Source: an uncultured Candidatus Saccharibacteria bacterium (GTDB taxonomy: Bacteria > Patescibacteriota > Saccharimonadia > Saccharimonadales > Saccharimonadaceae). Taken from it: 64,000 nt of DNA. The position numbers were made by a program, and so were the translations under genes. Below are positions 21,442 through 45,213 of this stretch, piece after piece; within the stretch, counting starts at the first letter, position 1; each line of letters opens with the position of its first letter. The DNA is taken from positions 1-64,000 of the forward strand of contig CAMJLE010000001.1 of assembly GCA_946406665.1 (NCBI GenBank). The letters run 5' to 3'. Under the pieces are notes generated by a model. It was not told the origin of the DNA. It did not search any database and was given only the letters and a program-made list of their open reading frames with translations.

Positions 21442-21488
21442 CGTATTGCGCAATAGGCGAAACACCTCCGGCTTGAAAGGGCCGGGGG

Positions 21489-22295
21489 TTATTTTTTCTT
21501 GTCTTTCTTCCCGTCTTTTAGGAATTTGCGAATTAGTACACAGGCTATTGCTAAGCCGACAACGAAGACCGCACATAAAGCCATGACTCCGGAAATATCG
21601 TCTAGAGTATAGGCGTTATTAGGCAACGGTTTTGGCTTGCGGCCACCGCCATTACTGCCGTTATTGCTATTATTGTTGCTACTGTTGCATTGCTGACAGT
21701 TGCAACAATTAGAACAGTTACATGGTTTGTCATCCTTATAGCCTTCCGCCGTAAAGACCCAATCTACCTCTCCGGTGCGATGCATATATTCATTACCGAG
21801 CGTCTTTGGCACAATTAATTCCACTTTCAGCGTAGTGCTAGCGCCGTTTACGAATTCGCCAAGGAGTACGTTGTTCCTTAGTCCATCGAGCTGATCAGGT
21901 GAAGAGTTATATATTAGGTTGCCGCCATTATAGACGCGCATCGATAATTGCGACAAGAAGTCCGACATGGTCGCAATGGTTTCTTTATCGGAGACTTCTT
22001 TCAAGGGCGGATTATTGGATTCATCATGCGTCTCGGCGCGAAGGTAGATTTTGACGTAGTCGTATTCTGGCGCCGTATTGCGGACCTTGATAGTTTCAGT
22101 GACTTTATCGCCCGGCATGGCATTCTTGAAACCGTCAAATAGGTCAGTATCGTTCCATTCTGAGCCTGGATAAAACACGAAATTATCTGCTCCGCCCTCA
22201 AAATAGACGGCAGAACTTAAAGCGCCAACATTTTGCGTTCCGAGCGCTACGAAAATTGAACTGAATAGTAAAATAGATGCGAAAAACTTCTTCAT
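21489..22295 (-). CDS. secreted, C-terminally anchored surface protein with Cys-rich linker and LPNNA motif
   Basis: signal peptide MKKFFASILLFSSIFVALGTQNVGA; NAMPGDKVTETIKVRNTAPEYDYVKIYLRAE; CNCSNCCNCQQC; LPNNA + TM + KDGKKDKKK. Confidence 0.8.
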   Translation of the reverse strand: MKKFFASILLFSSIFVALGTQNVGALSSAVYFEGGADNFVFYPGSEWNDTDLFDGFKNAMPGDKVTETIKVRNTAPEYDYVKIYLRAETHDESNNPPLKEVSDKETIATMSDFLSQLSMRVYNGGNLIYNSSPDQLDGLRNNVLLGEFVNGASTTLKVELIVPKTLGNEYMHRTGEVDWVFTAEGYKDDKPCNCSNCCNCQQCNSSNNNSNNGSNGGGRKPKPLPNNAYTLDDISGVMALCAVFVVGLAIACVLIRKFLKDGKKDKKK

Positions 22296-22296
22296 T

Positions 22297-22872
22297 TTAC
22301 TCCTCGGGCCAACCTTCCGCCTCATAAACGTTATTGCCATTATTCGCTACTTGAACGCCTTGCGCTGTTAATTCTATATTAAACGAAGCATCAGCAAAGG
22401 TTGTAGCTAGACCTTTTGACAGCGACACTTCCGTAAATAGCGGCTCAGTAGTTTCGCCAGCTTTGAGTGCGCGATAATAATAGTAGTAACCATCGCCACC
22501 ATTAAGCCAATTATGCGTATTATAATTAGCCATAATCGCATCATTTGGCGCGGGAACAACAGCGCCATCGGCATTTTTGACACTATTTTTCACAAGAATC
22601 CGCACCCAAACATCGCCGTGGTCAGTGTTTTTGACTTGCGGAATCTTGCTAAAAGTATCGCCCGGCATAGCGTTGTTGATATTCGTAAACGGAATCGGGC
22701 GCCCATCAACGCCAACTCGGTTAGTATTCTCAATCAAATCTATTGAAACACCGTCCGTAGTAATAACATTGTGGGCGCGATCCGATGTCACGAAGAAAGC
22801 AGAAGTACCACCAATCGTAGCCACGATTAGCAACGCGAGTGAGATTAGTAGTATCTTCTGCTTCTTAGACAT
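22297..22872 (-). CDS. SipW-dependent-type (TasA/camelysin-like) secreted protein
   Basis: MSKKQKILLISLALLIVATIGGTSAFFVTSDRAHNVITTDGVSIDLIE...NAMPGDTFSKIPQVKNTDHGDVWVRILVKN. Confidence 0.8.
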   Translation of the reverse strand: MSKKQKILLISLALLIVATIGGTSAFFVTSDRAHNVITTDGVSIDLIENTNRVGVDGRPIPFTNINNAMPGDTFSKIPQVKNTDHGDVWVRILVKNSVKNADGAVVPAPNDAIMANYNTHNWLNGGDGYYYYYRALKAGETTEPLFTEVSLSKGLATTFADASFNIELTAQGVQVANNGNNVYEAEGWPEE

Positions 22873-22892
22873 GAGTTTATTCTAAATTCCGT

Positions 22893-23642
22893 TTAGTTAT
22901 TTTGAGCAGCGTACGCAGCTACGGCGTCGTCAACATTAGCGATACCTTCGGCCTGAACTGCATAGGCATTAACGATTACTTCCCAATCGCCAGAATATTC
23001 AGCAAACGAGCCAGAATATTTACCATTCGTTACTTCCTGGCCGGTTGGTATATATACTTTGTCGCCAACCATTTTCACATCGTCATCGACATAAATTTGG
23101 CTGATTGCTGGAGAAGTAGTATAACCAGGTTCAACAATATCCTTGTGGGTTGAGCGTAGACGAGAATAGGTCTTATCGCCAACAGTAACTTCGTCAACAT
23201 AAGTCATAAGACTCCACTGATGAGTGTCATGATCGTCGTAGACAGTCGCTATGCCACTATTTGTAGTGTAGCCATCAAGAAATGTCTTTAGCTGATTATA
23301 ATGGAGAGCATTATTGCTTTCTTGAGTCTGTGTTTTCGAATTATAAAGAGCACTCGGAATCAGCATTTCAACCCAAACCCATGCCTTTTCGCTGTCATTC
23401 TTTACGGTAACAATAGCGTTCTTTTGCACCGCTATATCACTGTTCCCTGGCATTATCTTTTGGTTTTGCACGAAGGCATTACCCTGATGGTCATATTCTT
23501 TTAACTCAATGTCAACTTTACCAAGCGTAAAGGTGTTGGTCTCCGTTTCGGTATCCGTGAAATATGCCAAGGTGCCTGCGCTAAGAATAAGAGCGGAGAT
23601 GCCGAGTACACCTGCTACTGCTAGAACTTTTTGCTTTGTCAT
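22893..23642 (-). CDS. SipW-dependent-type (TasA/camelysin-like) secreted protein
   Basis: VLAVAGVLGISALILSAGTLAYFTDTETETNTFTLGKVDIELKEYD...VTVKNDSEKAWVWVEMLIP. Confidence 0.85.
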   Translation of the reverse strand: MTKQKVLAVAGVLGISALILSAGTLAYFTDTETETNTFTLGKVDIELKEYDHQGNAFVQNQKIMPGNSDIAVQKNAIVTVKNDSEKAWVWVEMLIPSALYNSKTQTQESNNALHYNQLKTFLDGYTTNSGIATVYDDHDTHQWSLMTYVDEVTVGDKTYSRLRSTHKDIVEPGYTTSPAISQIYVDDDVKMVGDKVYIPTGQEVTNGKYSGSFAEYSGDWEVIVNAYAVQAEGIANVDDAVAAYAAQNN

Positions 23643-23665
23643 TTTTTCTTGTTTTCCTTTCTTTA

Positions 23666-24352
23666 TTAGTTACTTAAATAGCTAAATGCTTGTTGTGGCG
23701 TGCTGAAGCCGTAAGATTGTACCGCTTCGGCGGTCATTTTTACGATCATTTTGCCATTTCCGTCTACGAAGTTAGATAAATCAACACTCTCGTCTTTCAA
23801 CACTTGCGTGCTTAAGCCAATATATTGGTAAATCGGCATAGTTGTCTTCATGCCGGGCTTGAGCGGTTCGCGACGCGTAAAGGTTACTTCTTTGTATTGC
23901 TTGCCATCAATTGTGCGATTCGCAAAGTTGCGGACAAATTCTGAGTCGCCAGGATCTTCGTCTGGCAATTTAGATGTGCCACCATAAGAGTATGTGATGT
24001 AATCCTTGCTAAATAGCTCTAGCGGGAAATACGCCTTGATGCGAACGTAGACATCGATGTTGCCATTATTAGTAACATAAGGCTTCATCGCGATCTGCTT
24101 GCCGGCGACGAGGATATTTGCGGAAGTTCCAAGCCATTCCTCATATGCTGTGTTGAGCTGCTCGGACATCGCCTTGTTGTAGTAAGTAGACGTAATATCC
24201 GAGTGCCAACGAAATAGCGTAATGTCCGTGTTGCCGACTAGGAATTGGTTTGTAACTTCGCTCGTATCTGTAAAGTACGAAAGGGTCGTCATGGAGCCGG
24301 TTACGCCCAACATGATAACGGCTAGAGATACAATCAGGATCTTTTTCTTCAT
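23666..24352 (-). CDS. SipW-dependent-type (TasA/camelysin-like) secreted protein
   Basis: MKKKILIVSLAVIMLGVTGSMTTLSYFTDTSEVTNQFLVGNTDITL...YVTNNGNIDVYVRIKAYFP. Confidence 0.85.
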   Translation of the reverse strand: MKKKILIVSLAVIMLGVTGSMTTLSYFTDTSEVTNQFLVGNTDITLFRWHSDITSTYYNKAMSEQLNTAYEEWLGTSANILVAGKQIAMKPYVTNNGNIDVYVRIKAYFPLELFSKDYITYSYGGTSKLPDEDPGDSEFVRNFANRTIDGKQYKEVTFTRREPLKPGMKTTMPIYQYIGLSTQVLKDESVDLSNFVDGNGKMIVKMTAEAVQSYGFSTPQQAFSYLSN

Positions 24353-24403
24353 TAACCTCCTTTCTCCCTATTAATATATGAATCTTTTAATAACTCCTTC
24401 ATA

Positions 24404-24916
24404 CTATTTTTTGCTCGCAGTTTTCTCCTTTCTTTTGTCATAAACAGTCGGATAGAATACCACGAATAGTAGGCCAATGGCGACTACTATCGCGATGTAT
24501 AAGCCTGGCGGATGTTGAATATGAAATGCTAAGTACCCCAGCAGCGGGATGGAAAATTCTGGCCTGCCGAGAACGTTTTTATAGTGAACCTCTTTTGCGT
24601 CAGGGACATCGTTGGCGTCACCTTTGGTGCGAAAACGCTTGCCATTATCGGCATTGACAACTTCAACGATGCGGTGCGTCACAATAGTATTATTCTCGTC
24701 GGCGACGAAAGTAATTACGTCGTTTTCTTCTAGCTCATCTATATCGACCGGCTTAACATAAATCAGCGAGCCGACGTGGTAATTTGGCTCCATCGAGCCC
24801 GACATGACGGTGTATATTTCGTAGCCAAATAGGCGGAAAACGACTAGTAAGATTGAGAGTAGCAGAACGAAACCGACCGCAATGGTGGTAAATATACCCC
24901 AATAACGTCTCCTCAT
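24404..24916 (-). CDS. sipW: type I signal peptidase, SipW/S26B type
   Basis: VMSGSMEPNYHVGSLIYVKPVD, ENDVITFVADENNTIVTHRIV, TKGDANDVPDAKEV, GRPEFSIPLLGYLAFHI; start at MRRRYWG with GGAG upstream. Confidence 0.88.
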   Translation of the reverse strand: MRRRYWGIFTTIAVGFVLLLSILLVVFRLFGYEIYTVMSGSMEPNYHVGSLIYVKPVDIDELEENDVITFVADENNTIVTHRIVEVVNADNGKRFRTKGDANDVPDAKEVHYKNVLGRPEFSIPLLGYLAFHIQHPPGLYIAIVVAIGLLFVVFYPTVYDKRKEKTASKK

Positions 24917-24973
24917 CCTACTCCTATCCACGTTTTTATTATATTCATTATGCTTATTTTTTGCAACAAAAAG

Positions 24974-25000
24974 CCCTCGTCCGATAAGCTCGGGCGAGGG
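24974..25000 (-). terminator. terminator of the 25088-25738 gene
   Basis: CCCTCGCCCGAgcttatCGGACGAGGG followed by T-tract on minus strand. Confidence 0.65.
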
Positions 25001-25087
25001 TCGACAAATGTTGATAGTAGCAATCAGCGCCCCTCCCCCCGCTACGTACATCACGAGCGGAGAGAGGGGACAGAACGGAGGGGATTA

Positions 25088-25948: not shown

Positions 25949-27562
25949 TCACGTAAAGCGATCCATCGTTATTGACACACCGTTCGGGCAGGTCTCTTTG
26001 AGCCCCTCGAAGGTCTCGTAGATCGACCTGGGGTCTTCCCCGTTGAGAATCTCGAGCGCCTTCAGGACGACTCGACCAGCCCTCTCGGGAACAAGGTCGC
26101 CATTCTCGAGCTTAACGAACTGTTCTCCTTTAGCGAGCTGCCCGTCAAACTTTACTAATATCCGGTACCAAGGACCAGATATCAGAACGCCGGTATACTC
26201 CCCAACGCCATACACCTCGATACTATAAGAAGAAAGAACCATATAGCCGTAGTTGTTTGTTTGCGGGAGAAGAGTCATTTTTTCGGTCGTCGCTGGGTCT
26301 ACGCGCCATTTCTGGCCATGCGCAAGAGCACGCAAATCCAGGCATCCGTCGCTTATATAGGCCGCAACGTCCTCCTGCGTAGAAATCCATCCGTCGCTAA
26401 AATTAGTCACGACAGGCGGCTGCTCCTCGGGATTTTCTGCCCTAATGACTTCCTCTGGGTCTGTCTTTGTGCGGAGATAGACATCCGCCAAGACGCCAGT
26501 CGGAGCCGTCTTGTCAAGGGCGTCAAAGCGCACCTCGAAGAAGTCGGGATAGTTCGCAAGGCTACTCATGGCCAGCGAGATTGCTCTCGCCATCAGCTCT
26601 GGAATTTTGCTTCCATTTTCCATGACGAATATATCGCCGGCCAATGGAAACGACATCCAAATCGTCACCCCGCGCCCGAGCTGCGCCTCAAAGTAAGGTC
26701 GCTCGGCATCGTCCCAGCTTCCATAGACTCGGATCTTCGACGTCTGACCTAGTTGGCTGTCGTCGTAATAATACGAGACGCCCCCGCCTTCGATGCTATC
26801 TCCGCCAACAAAACCGCGGCGCTTAGCCGTCTCGCCGAGCCAGAATTGATTGCCCATCGTTACAATGGGCGTACTGTCAACATCGTCCCAGGTTACCAGC
26901 TCGGTGTCGGGATTGTAGAGAACCTTGACGTCCGTATTGGCGGACTCACCCCACTGCTTGAGGCGCAGGAAACGAGCCTTCGTTCTCGCCGATTCTCCAT
27001 CAGACGTCTCGAGGTAATATAAAACTACCTTAGCCATCAACGGAGAAATGTGGCTTCCGTCTTCCAGAACCAGCGTTCTGTCCTCGGGCGAGTCATGAAA
27101 TTTCATATCGATTATACATGTGGGTGCAAAGATTCCGCCATGTATGTATGGACAATCCGAATCACTTCGGGCTCCATGGATCGTAATATTCGATCCGCTC
27201 TCTGGGACCATGTCGGCAGTAATCTCTTCCCCGGCAACCCCATAGCCATCAGTATGGCCATGAGCTTTCGCCATGCGGCGAAAATCGAGGTTATTCCCTT
27301 CGTCGATGTACGTCTCAATGTCGCCCTTCAGGAAGAAGTATCCTTCGCCGAATTGGACCCTGTTGCCAACTTCGTCAATCGCGGGATCGTAGTCCTCGAA
27401 GACGAAGGTGGGCCTCATGACCATTGTTTCAGGCTCAGGCTCTGGCTCGGTTTCCGCCGTAGCTCCGTATTGGTTAGCAGCGTGCATAAATGACACGAAA
27501 ATCAGCGTGGCGCAGAGTATTGCCGCTGCGCACTTGAAGATTCTATTAGATTCTTTCTTCAT
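25949..27562 (-). CDS. large secreted/lipidless exported hypothetical protein with about three internal repeats
   Basis: signal peptide MKKESNRIFKCAAAILCATLIFVSFMHAA; SD GGAGGGG before ATG 27562; repeats LEDGSHISPLMAKVVLYYLE / MENGSKIPELMARAISLAM / LENGDLVPERAGRVVLKALE. Confidence 0.8.
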   Translation of the reverse strand: MKKESNRIFKCAAAILCATLIFVSFMHAANQYGATAETEPEPEPETMVMRPTFVFEDYDPAIDEVGNRVQFGEGYFFLKGDIETYIDEGNNLDFRRMAKAHGHTDGYGVAGEEITADMVPESGSNITIHGARSDSDCPYIHGGIFAPTCIIDMKFHDSPEDRTLVLEDGSHISPLMAKVVLYYLETSDGESARTKARFLRLKQWGESANTDVKVLYNPDTELVTWDDVDSTPIVTMGNQFWLGETAKRRGFVGGDSIEGGGVSYYYDDSQLGQTSKIRVYGSWDDAERPYFEAQLGRGVTIWMSFPLAGDIFVMENGSKIPELMARAISLAMSSLANYPDFFEVRFDALDKTAPTGVLADVYLRTKTDPEEVIRAENPEEQPPVVTNFSDGWISTQEDVAAYISDGCLDLRALAHGQKWRVDPATTEKMTLLPQTNNYGYMVLSSYSIEVYGVGEYTGVLISGPWYRILVKFDGQLAKGEQFVKLENGDLVPERAGRVVLKALEILNGEDPRSIYETFEGLKETCPNGVSITMDRFT

Positions 27563-27681
27563 CTTTCCCCTCCTTGGATGTATTTTAAAATTCTTCACTA
27601 TACGCGACTGTAACTATATTATATCACACATCGGCGAAAAAATCAAGCATATGCTCTACCTAAAGCCCCTCTAATACCACA

Positions 27682-41323: not shown

Positions 41324-41432
41324 GTAAAAATGCTCCTTCTTTGATATATTACTTTGGCATTAGTTTACTATATTTCTGAGGTTTTTACAAGTGGGCAGCA
41401 TCACTAGGCTTCTCTATGCTATAATTAAGCTT

Positions 41433-42290
41433 ATGAAAATACGGAAGGCGAAGTCGCGAATCAAGCTCGCATTAAGTTGCGCGCTAGCTCTTGTTTGCGT
41501 GGTTGGAATTGGCGTATCTGGCTATAAGATTATTGAGTGGAAGATCGATTCTGAACGCACAAAGAACCAGCAAGAGGAAATTGTGGTTATTGCCGATGTT
41601 ACGGAAAAAGAGGACGACGAAAAGACCGAGGTTATCGAACAAAAGAAGCCAGACCCGAAGACTGGCCCATACTGGGACTATATTAAGATGAGGCTTATTG
41701 ATGTTGATTTTGGTGAGCTAAAAAAGAAGAACCCAGACACGGTGAGCTGGATTTCGCTAAGCGGAACAAATATTAACTACCCAGTAGTCCAATCGACCGA
41801 TAATGATTTCTATTTGCACCATACTTTTGATCGAAGCTACAATCAGGCGGGTTGGGTGTTCGCCGATTATCGCAACGCTATAGATGGCACTGATAAAAAT
41901 ATGATTTTTTACGCCCACGGGCGCGTTGATGGCACGATGTTCGGCACCTTACGAAATGCTCTGTCGAATGGCTGGCTAAGTAATACTAGTAACTTCACGG
42001 TACGTACAGCCAACGAACACGAGAGCTCGCTATGGCAGGCTTTCAGCGTATATCATATTCCGACTACTAGTGATTATATTAGGACTGATTTTGCGGGCGA
42101 TGAGGATTTCGAGCAGTTCGCCAATACACTCATGAAGCGTAGTGCATACAACTTTCATACGACAGTTTCTGGTTCCGACCACATCCTTACATTATCCACC
42201 TGCTACAGCGAAACAGAACGCGTAGTTTTGCACGCGAAGTTGATTAAACGACAAGCCAAGGCATCCGTGCCGGCGACTACGGATTTGTAA
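41433..42290 (+). CDS. class B-like sortase
   Basis: INYPVVQSTDNDFYLHHTFDRSYNQAGWVFADYRN, MIFYAHGRVDGTMFGTL, LTLSTCYSETERVVLHAKLI. Confidence 0.92.
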   Translation: MKIRKAKSRIKLALSCALALVCVVGIGVSGYKIIEWKIDSERTKNQQEEIVVIADVTEKEDDEKTEVIEQKKPDPKTGPYWDYIKMRLIDVDFGELKKKNPDTVSWISLSGTNINYPVVQSTDNDFYLHHTFDRSYNQAGWVFADYRNAIDGTDKNMIFYAHGRVDGTMFGTLRNALSNGWLSNTSNFTVRTANEHESSLWQAFSVYHIPTTSDYIRTDFAGDEDFEQFANTLMKRSAYNFHTTVSGSDHILTLSTCYSETERVVLHAKLIKRQAKASVPATTDL

Positions 42291-42316: not shown

Positions 42317-45127
42317 TTATTTGATAACTATATTCACTAAACGTGTCTTTGGAACTACGATAACCTTGACGATTTCCTTGCCATCCGTGAATGTCTTTAT
42401 TTTTTCGTCGGCAAGCGCTAGTTCCTCTAGCTTGGCCTCATCCTCGGCGTCGCCCGCAGCGATTTGAATGCGCGCGCGAAGCTTGCCGTTAACTTGGACG
42501 ACCATCTCGACTTCGTCATCGACGAGGTATTTCTCGTCCCACTTTGGCCAAATATCGTCAGACTTGAGCTCTTCGAGCATTTCCGATGCCAGATGTGGCG
42601 CAAACGGCTTAAGTAGCTTGGCGAGTGAAATCAAATCCTCTTTATTGGCGCCCTTTTTATATAGCTCATTTACAAACTCCATCAATGCAGCGACAGCCGT
42701 ATTGAAGTTATTGCGATGCATATCTTCGGTAACTTTTTTGATAGTCTTGTGACGATATGCGAGGTTTGTGTCTTCTTTGATGCATTTTTTGTCGAAAGTT
42801 AGAGTCCAACAACGATTCAGGAAGCGGTACACGCCTCCGATTGCTTCAGTGCTCCATGCAGCATCCATATTATATGGCCCAATAAACAATTCGTAAGTAC
42901 GAAGCGTATCTGCGCCATAGCCTTGATTGATAACATCGAGTGGATCGATGACGTTGCCCTTCGACTTCGACATCTTCTTGCCGTCTGGTGCATTAATATA
43001 GCCGTTGTACAGCAATTTTTTAATAGGTTCACGGAAGTTTAGATAGCCCTCGTCGGCAAAGAATTTGCACCAGAAGCGAACATAGAGTAAGTGCGCAACC
43101 GCATGGTCGCCACCACAATAAACGTCGGTAGGTGCCCAAAAATTAACTTTCTCTGGCGCCCAGGCTTGATTCTTATTATGTGGATCAGTATAGCGCCAGA
43201 GGTACCAGCTCGAACAAGCATACCCATCAAGCGTATCTGTCTCGCGCATCATTTTTTCGCCATTGATTGTAACTTCCATGAATTCCTTGGATTTTGCGAG
43301 AGCACTACGTCCAGACTTATCCGGTTTATAATCGTCAATCTTTGGCAGCATAACCGGCAATTGATCTTCAGGAATTGCGTGCGGATTACCCTGTTTGTCG
43401 TAGGCTATAGGAATCGGACAACCCCAGTAGCGTTGTCGCGAAATTAGCCAGTCGCGCATACGATAAGTAACTTTGCTGCGACCAAGCTTCTTCTTTTCTA
43501 GCCATGCAATTATGCGTTCGCTCGCAATAGCATGCTCCAGACCGTCGTATTCGCCAGAATTTATCATGATGCCGGCGCCAGCCATAGCGCTAGGGCTCTT
43601 GTAGTAATTAAAAGTTTTTACGTGGAGTTCGTCTTGGATTTTTGCAAGAACTTCTTTCTCACTTAGCCATTCAACGTCGAGTTTTTCGTCGGCATCAAGC
43701 TTCTGCTTATTGCGCTTGTCTGATTTTAGTTGAAATACGAAGCCGTAGAATTCTTTTTCGACGTATTCTTTTCGGCTAGCCGCATAGAAATGATGAAGGA
43801 TGCGTGGAGTCTCCGTAATTAATTCCAAATCTACATATCCGGTTTCTTCGGCTATCTCGCGAAGCGCACACTCTTCTGGTGTTTCGCCTTTCTTACTACT
43901 GCCGCCCGGGAAAAGATGCCAATCGTGACCATCTGTCTTGCTCCAGTCTAATACTAAGTATTTCTTAGTATTTGGATCATATACTACGCCAAGGGAGCCC
44001 CATTCTTTTCTTTCTGCTTCGTCGTTAGCGTCGCCAGTGGTTTCTTCGATGACTTGACGAATTGGAAGATTGAATTTCTGCGCAAACTCATAGTCGCGCG
44101 TATCGTGAGCCGGAACCGCCATAATAGCGCCCTCGCCGTACCCAGCCAAGACATAATCCGCGACCCAAACCGGTATTTTTTCGTTATTAATAGGGTTAAT
44201 TGCATACGCACCGGTGAAGACGCCGGTTTTTTTCTTGTTCTCTTGGCGTTCAATCTCGGATTTCTTGATTGCTTCCGCGCAATATTTTTCAACCTTTGAG
44301 TGTTCTTTCGTGGCGACAATCTTTTTAATTAGCGGATGCTCTGGCGCCAAGACTAGAAAAGTGGCGCCGAATAGCGTGTCTGGGCGAGTAGTAAAAACAG
44401 TAACTTTTTCGTTTGAGCCATCAATGCGAAAATCAATTTCTGCGCCCTCACTACGGCCAATCCAATTCTTCTGCATGGTCTTGATTTTTTCTGGCCAATC
44501 AAGAGAATCGATTTCGTCGAGTAGTTCGTCCGCATATGCAGTGATTTTGAAGAACCACTGTTTCATCTTTTTCTTTTCGACTTCGTGACCACAGCGCCAG
44601 CAGCAACCACCCTCTACCTGCTCGTTTGCGAGTACCGTCTGATCGACCGGGCACCACCATTGATAGCTCTCTGCTTGATATGCGAGGCCTTTTTTGAATA
44701 GCTGAAGAAAACACCATTGAGTCCACTTGTAATATTCTGGGTCGGAAGTATTAATTTCGCGCGACCAATCGATTGCATAACCTAGGCGCTTCGCCTGCTT
44801 GCGGAAATTATCAATATTAGTTTTTGTGACTTCTTGAGGGGAAATGCCAGTCTTGATAGCGTAGTTCTCGGCAGGAAGCCCAAAAGTGTCATAGCCAAAT
44901 GGGCGCAAAACATTCATTTCTTGCTGCGCGTAGAAACGAGCTAAACAATCTACGATAGAAAAATTGCGAACGTGGCCAACATGAAGGCCGGCGCCGGACG
45001 GATAAGGAAACATTTCCGCGAGAAACATCTTCGGACGCTCGTCGTCGTCTTTTGCGGCAAAAGGTTTTTCTTCTTCCCAACGCTTTTGCCATTTTTCTTC
45101 TATTTTTAGTGGATCGTAATGGCTCAT
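42317..45127 (-). CDS. leuS: leucyl-tRNA synthetase with inserted Nudix domain
   Basis: HVGH, KMSKS, TTRPDTLFG, GYGEGAIMAVPAHDTRDYEFA; consensus Nudix box GSSKKGETPEECALREIAEETGY inside CP1. Confidence 0.97.
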   Translation of the reverse strand: MSHYDPLKIEEKWQKRWEEEKPFAAKDDDERPKMFLAEMFPYPSGAGLHVGHVRNFSIVDCLARFYAQQEMNVLRPFGYDTFGLPAENYAIKTGISPQEVTKTNIDNFRKQAKRLGYAIDWSREINTSDPEYYKWTQWCFLQLFKKGLAYQAESYQWWCPVDQTVLANEQVEGGCCWRCGHEVEKKKMKQWFFKITAYADELLDEIDSLDWPEKIKTMQKNWIGRSEGAEIDFRIDGSNEKVTVFTTRPDTLFGATFLVLAPEHPLIKKIVATKEHSKVEKYCAEAIKKSEIERQENKKKTGVFTGAYAINPINNEKIPVWVADYVLAGYGEGAIMAVPAHDTRDYEFAQKFNLPIRQVIEETTGDANDEAERKEWGSLGVVYDPNTKKYLVLDWSKTDGHDWHLFPGGSSKKGETPEECALREIAEETGYVDLELITETPRILHHFYAASRKEYVEKEFYGFVFQLKSDKRNKQKLDADEKLDVEWLSEKEVLAKIQDELHVKTFNYYKSPSAMAGAGIMINSGEYDGLEHAIASERIIAWLEKKKLGRSKVTYRMRDWLISRQRYWGCPIPIAYDKQGNPHAIPEDQLPVMLPKIDDYKPDKSGRSALAKSKEFMEVTINGEKMMRETDTLDGYACSSWYLWRYTDPHNKNQAWAPEKVNFWAPTDVYCGGDHAVAHLLYVRFWCKFFADEGYLNFREPIKKLLYNGYINAPDGKKMSKSKGNVIDPLDVINQGYGADTLRTYELFIGPYNMDAAWSTEAIGGVYRFLNRCWTLTFDKKCIKEDTNLAYRHKTIKKVTEDMHRNNFNTAVAALMEFVNELYKKGANKEDLISLAKLLKPFAPHLASEMLEELKSDDIWPKWDEKYLVDDEVEMVVQVNGKLRARIQIAAGDAEDEAKLEELALADEKIKTFTDGKEIVKVIVVPKTRLVNIVIK

Positions 45128-45213
45128 AATTAACATATTTTACCCTATTTTCTAAGAGGTGTAAAATGCTCGCGTTTTAACACAAAAAGCATTTCGTAGT
45201 GTATAATAATGTA

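Follow-up and report, generated by a model that had tools for sequence, protein, structure and literature searches.

Gene organisation of the sipW locus

The window, i.e., the whole stretch of DNA that was analysed, comprises 64,000 nucleotides from an uncultured Candidatus Saccharibacteria bacterium. Between positions 21489 and 24931 its minus strand encodes a SipW peptidase together with four further proteins, three of them secreted and one membrane-anchored, and sequence motifs or profiles relate all of them to one another. The five open reading frames were found on the minus strand where, and in the order in which, the first-pass annotation had placed them. The first gene, sipW (24404..24931, minus strand), codes for an ER-type (S26B) signal peptidase and is followed on the same strand by the genes for a 228-aa SipW-type secreted protein, which is a candidate TasA/BsaA-like subunit (23666..24352), a 249-aa SipW-type secreted protein, the variable or cassette subunit (22893..23642), a 191-aa BsaA-like secreted protein with an AxGWPEE end (22297..22872) and a TasA-like membrane-anchored protein (21489..22295). 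The latter comprises 268 aa when counted from Met 22295; its open reading frame (21489-22340) corresponds to 283 aa, and it is referred to as the 283-aa protein or anchor in the following.

Within the sipW open reading frame (24404-25054) the start had initially been placed at 24916, which turned out to be an internal methionine; GTG at 24931, yielding 175 aa, is favoured instead, its position being common to most orthologues. A consensus scan identified the promoter TTGCAA-17-TATAAT (24938..24966, minus strand), the -10 box of which ends 7 nt before the GTG codon, and TATAAT was found at approximately the same spot before the sipW start codon in all ten orthologous loci that were read. This location, 7-8 nt ahead of the start codon, renders GTG 24931 the most likely start and suggests that the sipW mRNA is leaderless. 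Downstream of sipW, the genes either abut or are separated by gaps of approximately 20-50 nt, and Shine-Dalgarno-like AGGAGG/GAGGAG sites precede the genes of the 228- and 283-aa proteins. Considering this spacing and these sites, the five genes were reasoned to form one operon, which has a conserved promoter-like site in front of it and is probably transcribed independently. A GC-rich hairpin at the operon 3' end (21464..21489, strand unassigned) comes from the consensus scan only, whereby its T run was scored on the plus strand, and it may serve the convergent plus strand gene. An Rfam scan of 20-28 kb gave no match. GC content amounts to 43-46% for the operon genes and 47% for lepA and nifS, and as the operon genes resemble these two, it is uninformative on recent transfer.

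Membership of the upstream 216-aa and 549-aa genes in the operon was considered and rejected, as the 216-aa gene was not found beside the operon in relatives and as a T-run hairpin lies ahead of the conserved promoter. The 549-aa secreted protein (25949-27598, minus strand) has no family match; a relative of approximately 200 aa with 36% identity locates to the same position in loci L032-L034.

The signal peptidase and its candidate substrates

That an S26B peptidase heads the minus-strand gene set was confirmed with TIGR02228, which was matched above its cut-off (E 3e-30; 105 bits, cut-off 51.85). For NF046067, the Bacillus SipW equivalog, E 4e-34 and 117.8 bits were obtained and the curated cut-off of 190 was not reached; the window SipW is hence to be regarded as a relative of Bacillus SipW, not as a certified orthologue. 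The peptidase possesses the catalytic-type motifs MSGSMEP (Ser), VTHRI (His) and KGDAND (Asp), of which SGSMEP, VTHRI and GDAN are kept across 11 aligned orthologues, and it was assigned to the ER-type Ser-His class of the S26 family.

A strict LxYFTDT...NxFxxGxxDIxL motif had been ascribed to three of the secreted proteins, which holds true for the 228- and 249-aa proteins and not for the 191-aa protein; the latter carries the variant TSAFFVTSDRAHNVITTDGVSIDLIE, with SAFFVTSD where the other two possess YFTDT. The model of the SipW-cognate signal, TIGR04088, was matched above its cut-off of 19 by the 249-aa (E 1.9e-10, 40.6 bits) and 228-aa (E 3.3e-6, 27.1 bits) proteins and gave no match for the 191- and 283-aa proteins. 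TIGR04090, which represents the BsaA family, was matched by the 191-aa protein with 43 bits (E 4.4e-11) and by the 249-aa protein with 24.7 bits, both under the cut-off of 60. In all three SipW-type precursors the second residue behind the likely cut is Phe, and in this they resemble TasA, where Phe at P2' hinders ordinary signal peptidase (PMC10269814). On profile comparison, the family of the 191-aa protein matched that of the 228-aa protein with a probability of 99.4 and that of the 283-aa protein with a probability of 95.8; the 228-aa protein further possesses a conserved C-terminal AxAVQxxGF...AF.

The search against TasA/CalY (PF12389) that the first-pass annotation had proposed identified the 249-aa protein (28.7 bits, E 1.5e-6, cut-off 22.5), while the 191-aa protein gave 15 bits only, which is under this cut-off, and the 228- and 283-aa proteins were without any match in Pfam. 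As PF12389 is named 'Peptidase_M73', the match of the 249-aa protein might be taken to indicate a camelysin-like metalloprotease set. This reading is barely credible and was discarded as HExxH is missing from all four proteins; in addition, the same Pfam model matches in B. subtilis, the organism of TasA, and the best structural matches (see below) are fibre subunits.

The fourth protein, predicted to be secreted and anchored, has NAMPGDxxxxxxxVxN in common with the others, as had been noted; its signal peptide is ordinary-looking and not SipW-type. The signal peptide is followed by a beta domain, a Cys-rich linker (CNCSNCCNCQQC), a C-terminal transmembrane helix and a basic tail. The cysteine cluster between beta domain and membrane helix occurs in only some relatives and may bind metal or form disulfides.

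Searching solved structures by sequence with all four proteins yielded chance-level matches only and no solved TasA. Two of the four, the 191- and the 283-aa proteins, were modelled with AlphaFold. The 191 model (pLDDT 82) consists of a signal helix (residues 3-20), a disordered segment (21-40) and a beta-rich core, whereby the post-cleavage residues 21-40 have pLDDT values below 50 and most of the core has values of 85-97. Its top match among 350,542 PDB chains (Foldseek) was the TasA fibre 8AUR (E 1.5e-3, probability 1.00); further beta-sandwich proteins, including CfaB-type pilins, came next. For the 283 model (pLDDT 69) the top match was 7UEG, a TasA-like archaeal bundling pilin (E 2.3e-4, probability 0.99), with FimG-type pilins among the next matches. 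These E-values are modest (above 0.001 for the 191 model) and the TM-scores are low (0.2-0.4), in part owing to the signal helix and loops present in the models. A TasA-like fold was the best match of both modelled subunits, and we take the concordance of the two separate models as the main structural support.

TasA forms fibres by donor-strand exchange, its N-terminal strand reaching into the next subunit (PMC9674648), and the predicted disorder of residues 21-40 in the 191-aa protein would be compatible with a free donor segment. Fibres and donor-strand exchange are what we infer for the window proteins. Alternatively, the SipW-processed proteins could serve as surface coat or adhesin proteins that sit on the membrane anchor singly or in small complexes and never polymerise. 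Such an arrangement would suit a small operon with a single anchor, and a soluble monomeric form is also known for TasA itself (crystal form 5OF2, PMC9674648); nevertheless, it is considered unlikely, given three paralogous subunits within one operon, the N-terminal segment that is disordered after cleavage in the 191 model, and fibre forms as best structural matches.

The operon differs from B. subtilis tapA-sipW-tasA in that no TapA homologue was recognised in it, in that it encodes a membrane-anchored TasA-like protein in addition to three paralogous subunits, and in that its proteins have diverged too far to be matched to solved TasA by sequence. With C. perfringens sipW-bsaABC it has in common that sipW comes first and that BsaA-family proteins are encoded in the operon, whereas the two-component genes are absent, the 191-aa protein scores under the TIGR04090 cut-off and an anchored TasA-like protein is added. 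The archaeal bundling pili of Pyrobaculum (PDB 7UEG), the best PDB match of the 283 model, belong to another domain of life, and the 283-aa protein differs from them by its C-terminal membrane anchor.

Distribution, relatives and cassette replacement

Of the 45 genomes of the genus, 12 have the five genes in this order, flanked by rpoC and nifS where contigs reach. Far from being absent in all relatives, the locus is conserved, with its gene order kept in independent Saccharibacteria genomes and in a related genus, and as the same order recurs in independent genomes the five-gene set is not due to chance. The relatives are Saccharibacteria MAGs, several of them from the gut of goat, sheep or further ruminants, and the genome of the window likewise belongs to a gut or rumen member of the Saccharibacteria. 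Contamination of the MAG was rejected, as the operon lies on one contig between Saccharibacterial rpoC and nifS, here and in several independent genomes. In several genomes rpoC and nifS are nearly adjacent and free of the operon (28 bp apart in G030, approximately 160 bp in G012 and approximately 390 bp in G034), and other genomes carry unrelated inserts; the junction, being empty in some genomes and differently occupied in others, is thus an insertion site. At the same junction, L107 (G003) has three tandem prepilin-like genes (GFTIIEVVLVLAIAGLIF) in place of the SipW operon. Within the related genus the operon occupies three other locations, namely inside a cluster of ribosomal protein genes, next to groES-groEL-like genes and close to genes resembling tsaD and ileS (gene names being read from sequence), and one sheep-ileum genome possesses two tandem operon sets. 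Across the phylum sample, the 191 profile gave any match in 8 of 380 genomes, mostly a weak one. A literature search, which left most subscription papers and preprints out of reach, returned no paper joining Saccharibacteria and SipW; the sole match for Patescibacteria and SipW appears to concern Bacillus in the rhizosphere.

In the SipW tree the window enzyme clusters with its orthologues (type A), while types B and C stand firmly apart and the branching among type A and Clostridia is left open. Type C adjoins a GTPase gene, a distant LepA relative. Type B was found in 13 genomes of the genus, and type B operons, where read, encode BsaA-like proteins, an anchor homologue with an NPRTN tail, a membrane glycosyltransferase-like protein and a sortase. 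Types A (12 genomes) and B (13) were not found together in any of the 45 genomes, which was calculated to occur by chance in about 0.8% of cases if the genomes were independent, and which relatedness alone could cause. The TasA/BsaA-like domain reaches up to 19 matches per genome in some type B genomes and, in the type B proteins read, mostly forms the N-terminal part of proteins of 450-900 aa, the remainders of which are leucine-rich (DUF285), GH20 hexosaminidase, InlB-like repeat or unnamed domains. These fusions support, and do not prove, a role of the domain as docking or polymerising module. The expanded fusion family comprises L046, L047 and L118-L137 (type B genomes G017, G043 and G040).

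A homologue of the 191-aa protein with the same VQxANNG...GWP end occurs in eight gut Clostridia-type loci (L079-L086), most of which also carry sipW, TasA-like genes and a 283 homologue. Gene order is alike, i.e., sipW, TasA-like proteins, the 191 homologue ending in GWP and the 283 homologue, whereas in the Clostridia loci read in detail the 191 and anchor homologues are set apart by a gene for an adhesin-like protein of 1000-1600 aa and by an additional BsaA-like gene; in Saccharibacteria the operon is shorter and this giant gene is missing. Transfer between Clostridia and Saccharibacteria appears likely, or at least possible. Clostridial anchors mostly end in an xPxTG-type sortase signal, and NPKTG, PQTG and PDTG were found as anchor ends in Clostridia and the related genus. 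From these ends, from the sortase gene in the SipW operon of sister species and from four sortase-domain matches in the genome of the window, one of them within the window, a sortase-assembled or sortase-anchored pilus could be proposed. The operon itself contains no sortase gene, LPxTG is found in none of its four proteins, the anchor tail reads PLPNNAYTLDD, and C. perfringens BsaA forms stable filaments for which SipW is needed and the neighbouring sortase is not (PMC7395162), so that such a pilus is quite improbable here. For the genus of the window, the sorting motif is rather seen as degenerated, with the membrane helix and basic tail left.

The five genes differ in their degree of conservation. 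Averaged over all locus pairs, the 249-aa protein has the lowest identity of the five (37%), as compared to 57% for the 191-aa protein and 71% for SipW. Between L032 and L033, identity amounts to 98% for SipW, 98% for the 228-, 95% for the 191- and 91% for the 283-aa protein and to only 34% for the 249-aa protein. On the DNA level the two loci are mostly 90-99% identical until the 249 gene begins, fall to approximately 35-55% within its mature part and return to at least 91% at the 191 gene. This sharp drop and return documents a cassette-like replacement of the mature part, with signal segment and neighbours retained, and the 249 gene is thus a cassette exchanged between near-identical operons. 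The L032 allele recurs in L042, the L033 allele in L034. Such variability is as expected of an exposed, interaction-setting subunit; phage or immune pressure would show the same.

Proposed function of the operon

Saccharibacteria are tiny, with cultured relatives that live attached to other bacteria, and their grip on hosts has so far been explained mostly by type IV pili. The TasA-like fibre locus that the first-pass annotation had suggested gained support from HMM matches, conserved gene order and TasA-type best structural matches, and the five genes were concluded to constitute, with good probability, a compact fibre operon of the SipW/TasA-BsaA type. The suggested mechanism assumes that SipW cleaves the three precursors before an aromatic pair ([AS]|[YF]F), whereupon the 191-aa protein, and probably the 228-aa protein too, would form the conserved body or base of the fibre. 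The 249-aa protein would co-assemble as an exchangeable component that plausibly sits at the tip or is exposed, and the 283-aa protein, after processing by the ordinary signal peptidase, would tie the fibre to the cell through its membrane helix. The likely role is adhesion to a host bacterium or to the gut surroundings, separate from type IV pili. The latter are surface filaments which Saccharibacteria (TM7x) use in host binding, and type IV pilus mutants that were tested bind less, yet still bind (PMC12206443). From these pili the window operon differs by the absence of a prepilin-type signal or pilus assembly gene and by belonging to an unrelated family. The findings suggest TasA-like fibres as a so far undescribed way of touching hosts or surroundings and the operon as a second, genetically simple candidate for host grip in gut and rumen species, being absent from most of the phylum sample. 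They further extend SipW/TasA-type biology to Patescibacteria and link it to gut Clostridia. As the 249-aa protein changes by replacement next to near-identical neighbours, it becomes testable whether the subunit type follows host or niche.

A more speculative idea, to which only a modest chance is given, regards the TasA/BsaA domain as a general display module. In type A, a fixed fibre base would present the exchangeable 249-aa subunit, which would set binding; in type B, the domain would be the N-terminal plug of a fusion repertoire, the members of which would use a donor strand for non-covalent attachment to a shared scaffold, itself processed by SipW and anchored by sortase. If true, the exchange of subunits on a SipW fibre would determine the host range of an episymbiont.

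Elsewhere in the window, a sortase-family protein is encoded at 41391-42290 (plus strand), and the leucyl-tRNA synthetase (42317-45136, minus strand) carries, at approximately 43583-44017, an inserted Nudix domain close to its editing domain. Most other genomes of the genus encode a leucyl-tRNA synthetase of approximately 800 aa that lacks the insert and matches its two flanks in direct succession; the form of 938-940 aa occurs in only 5 of the 45.
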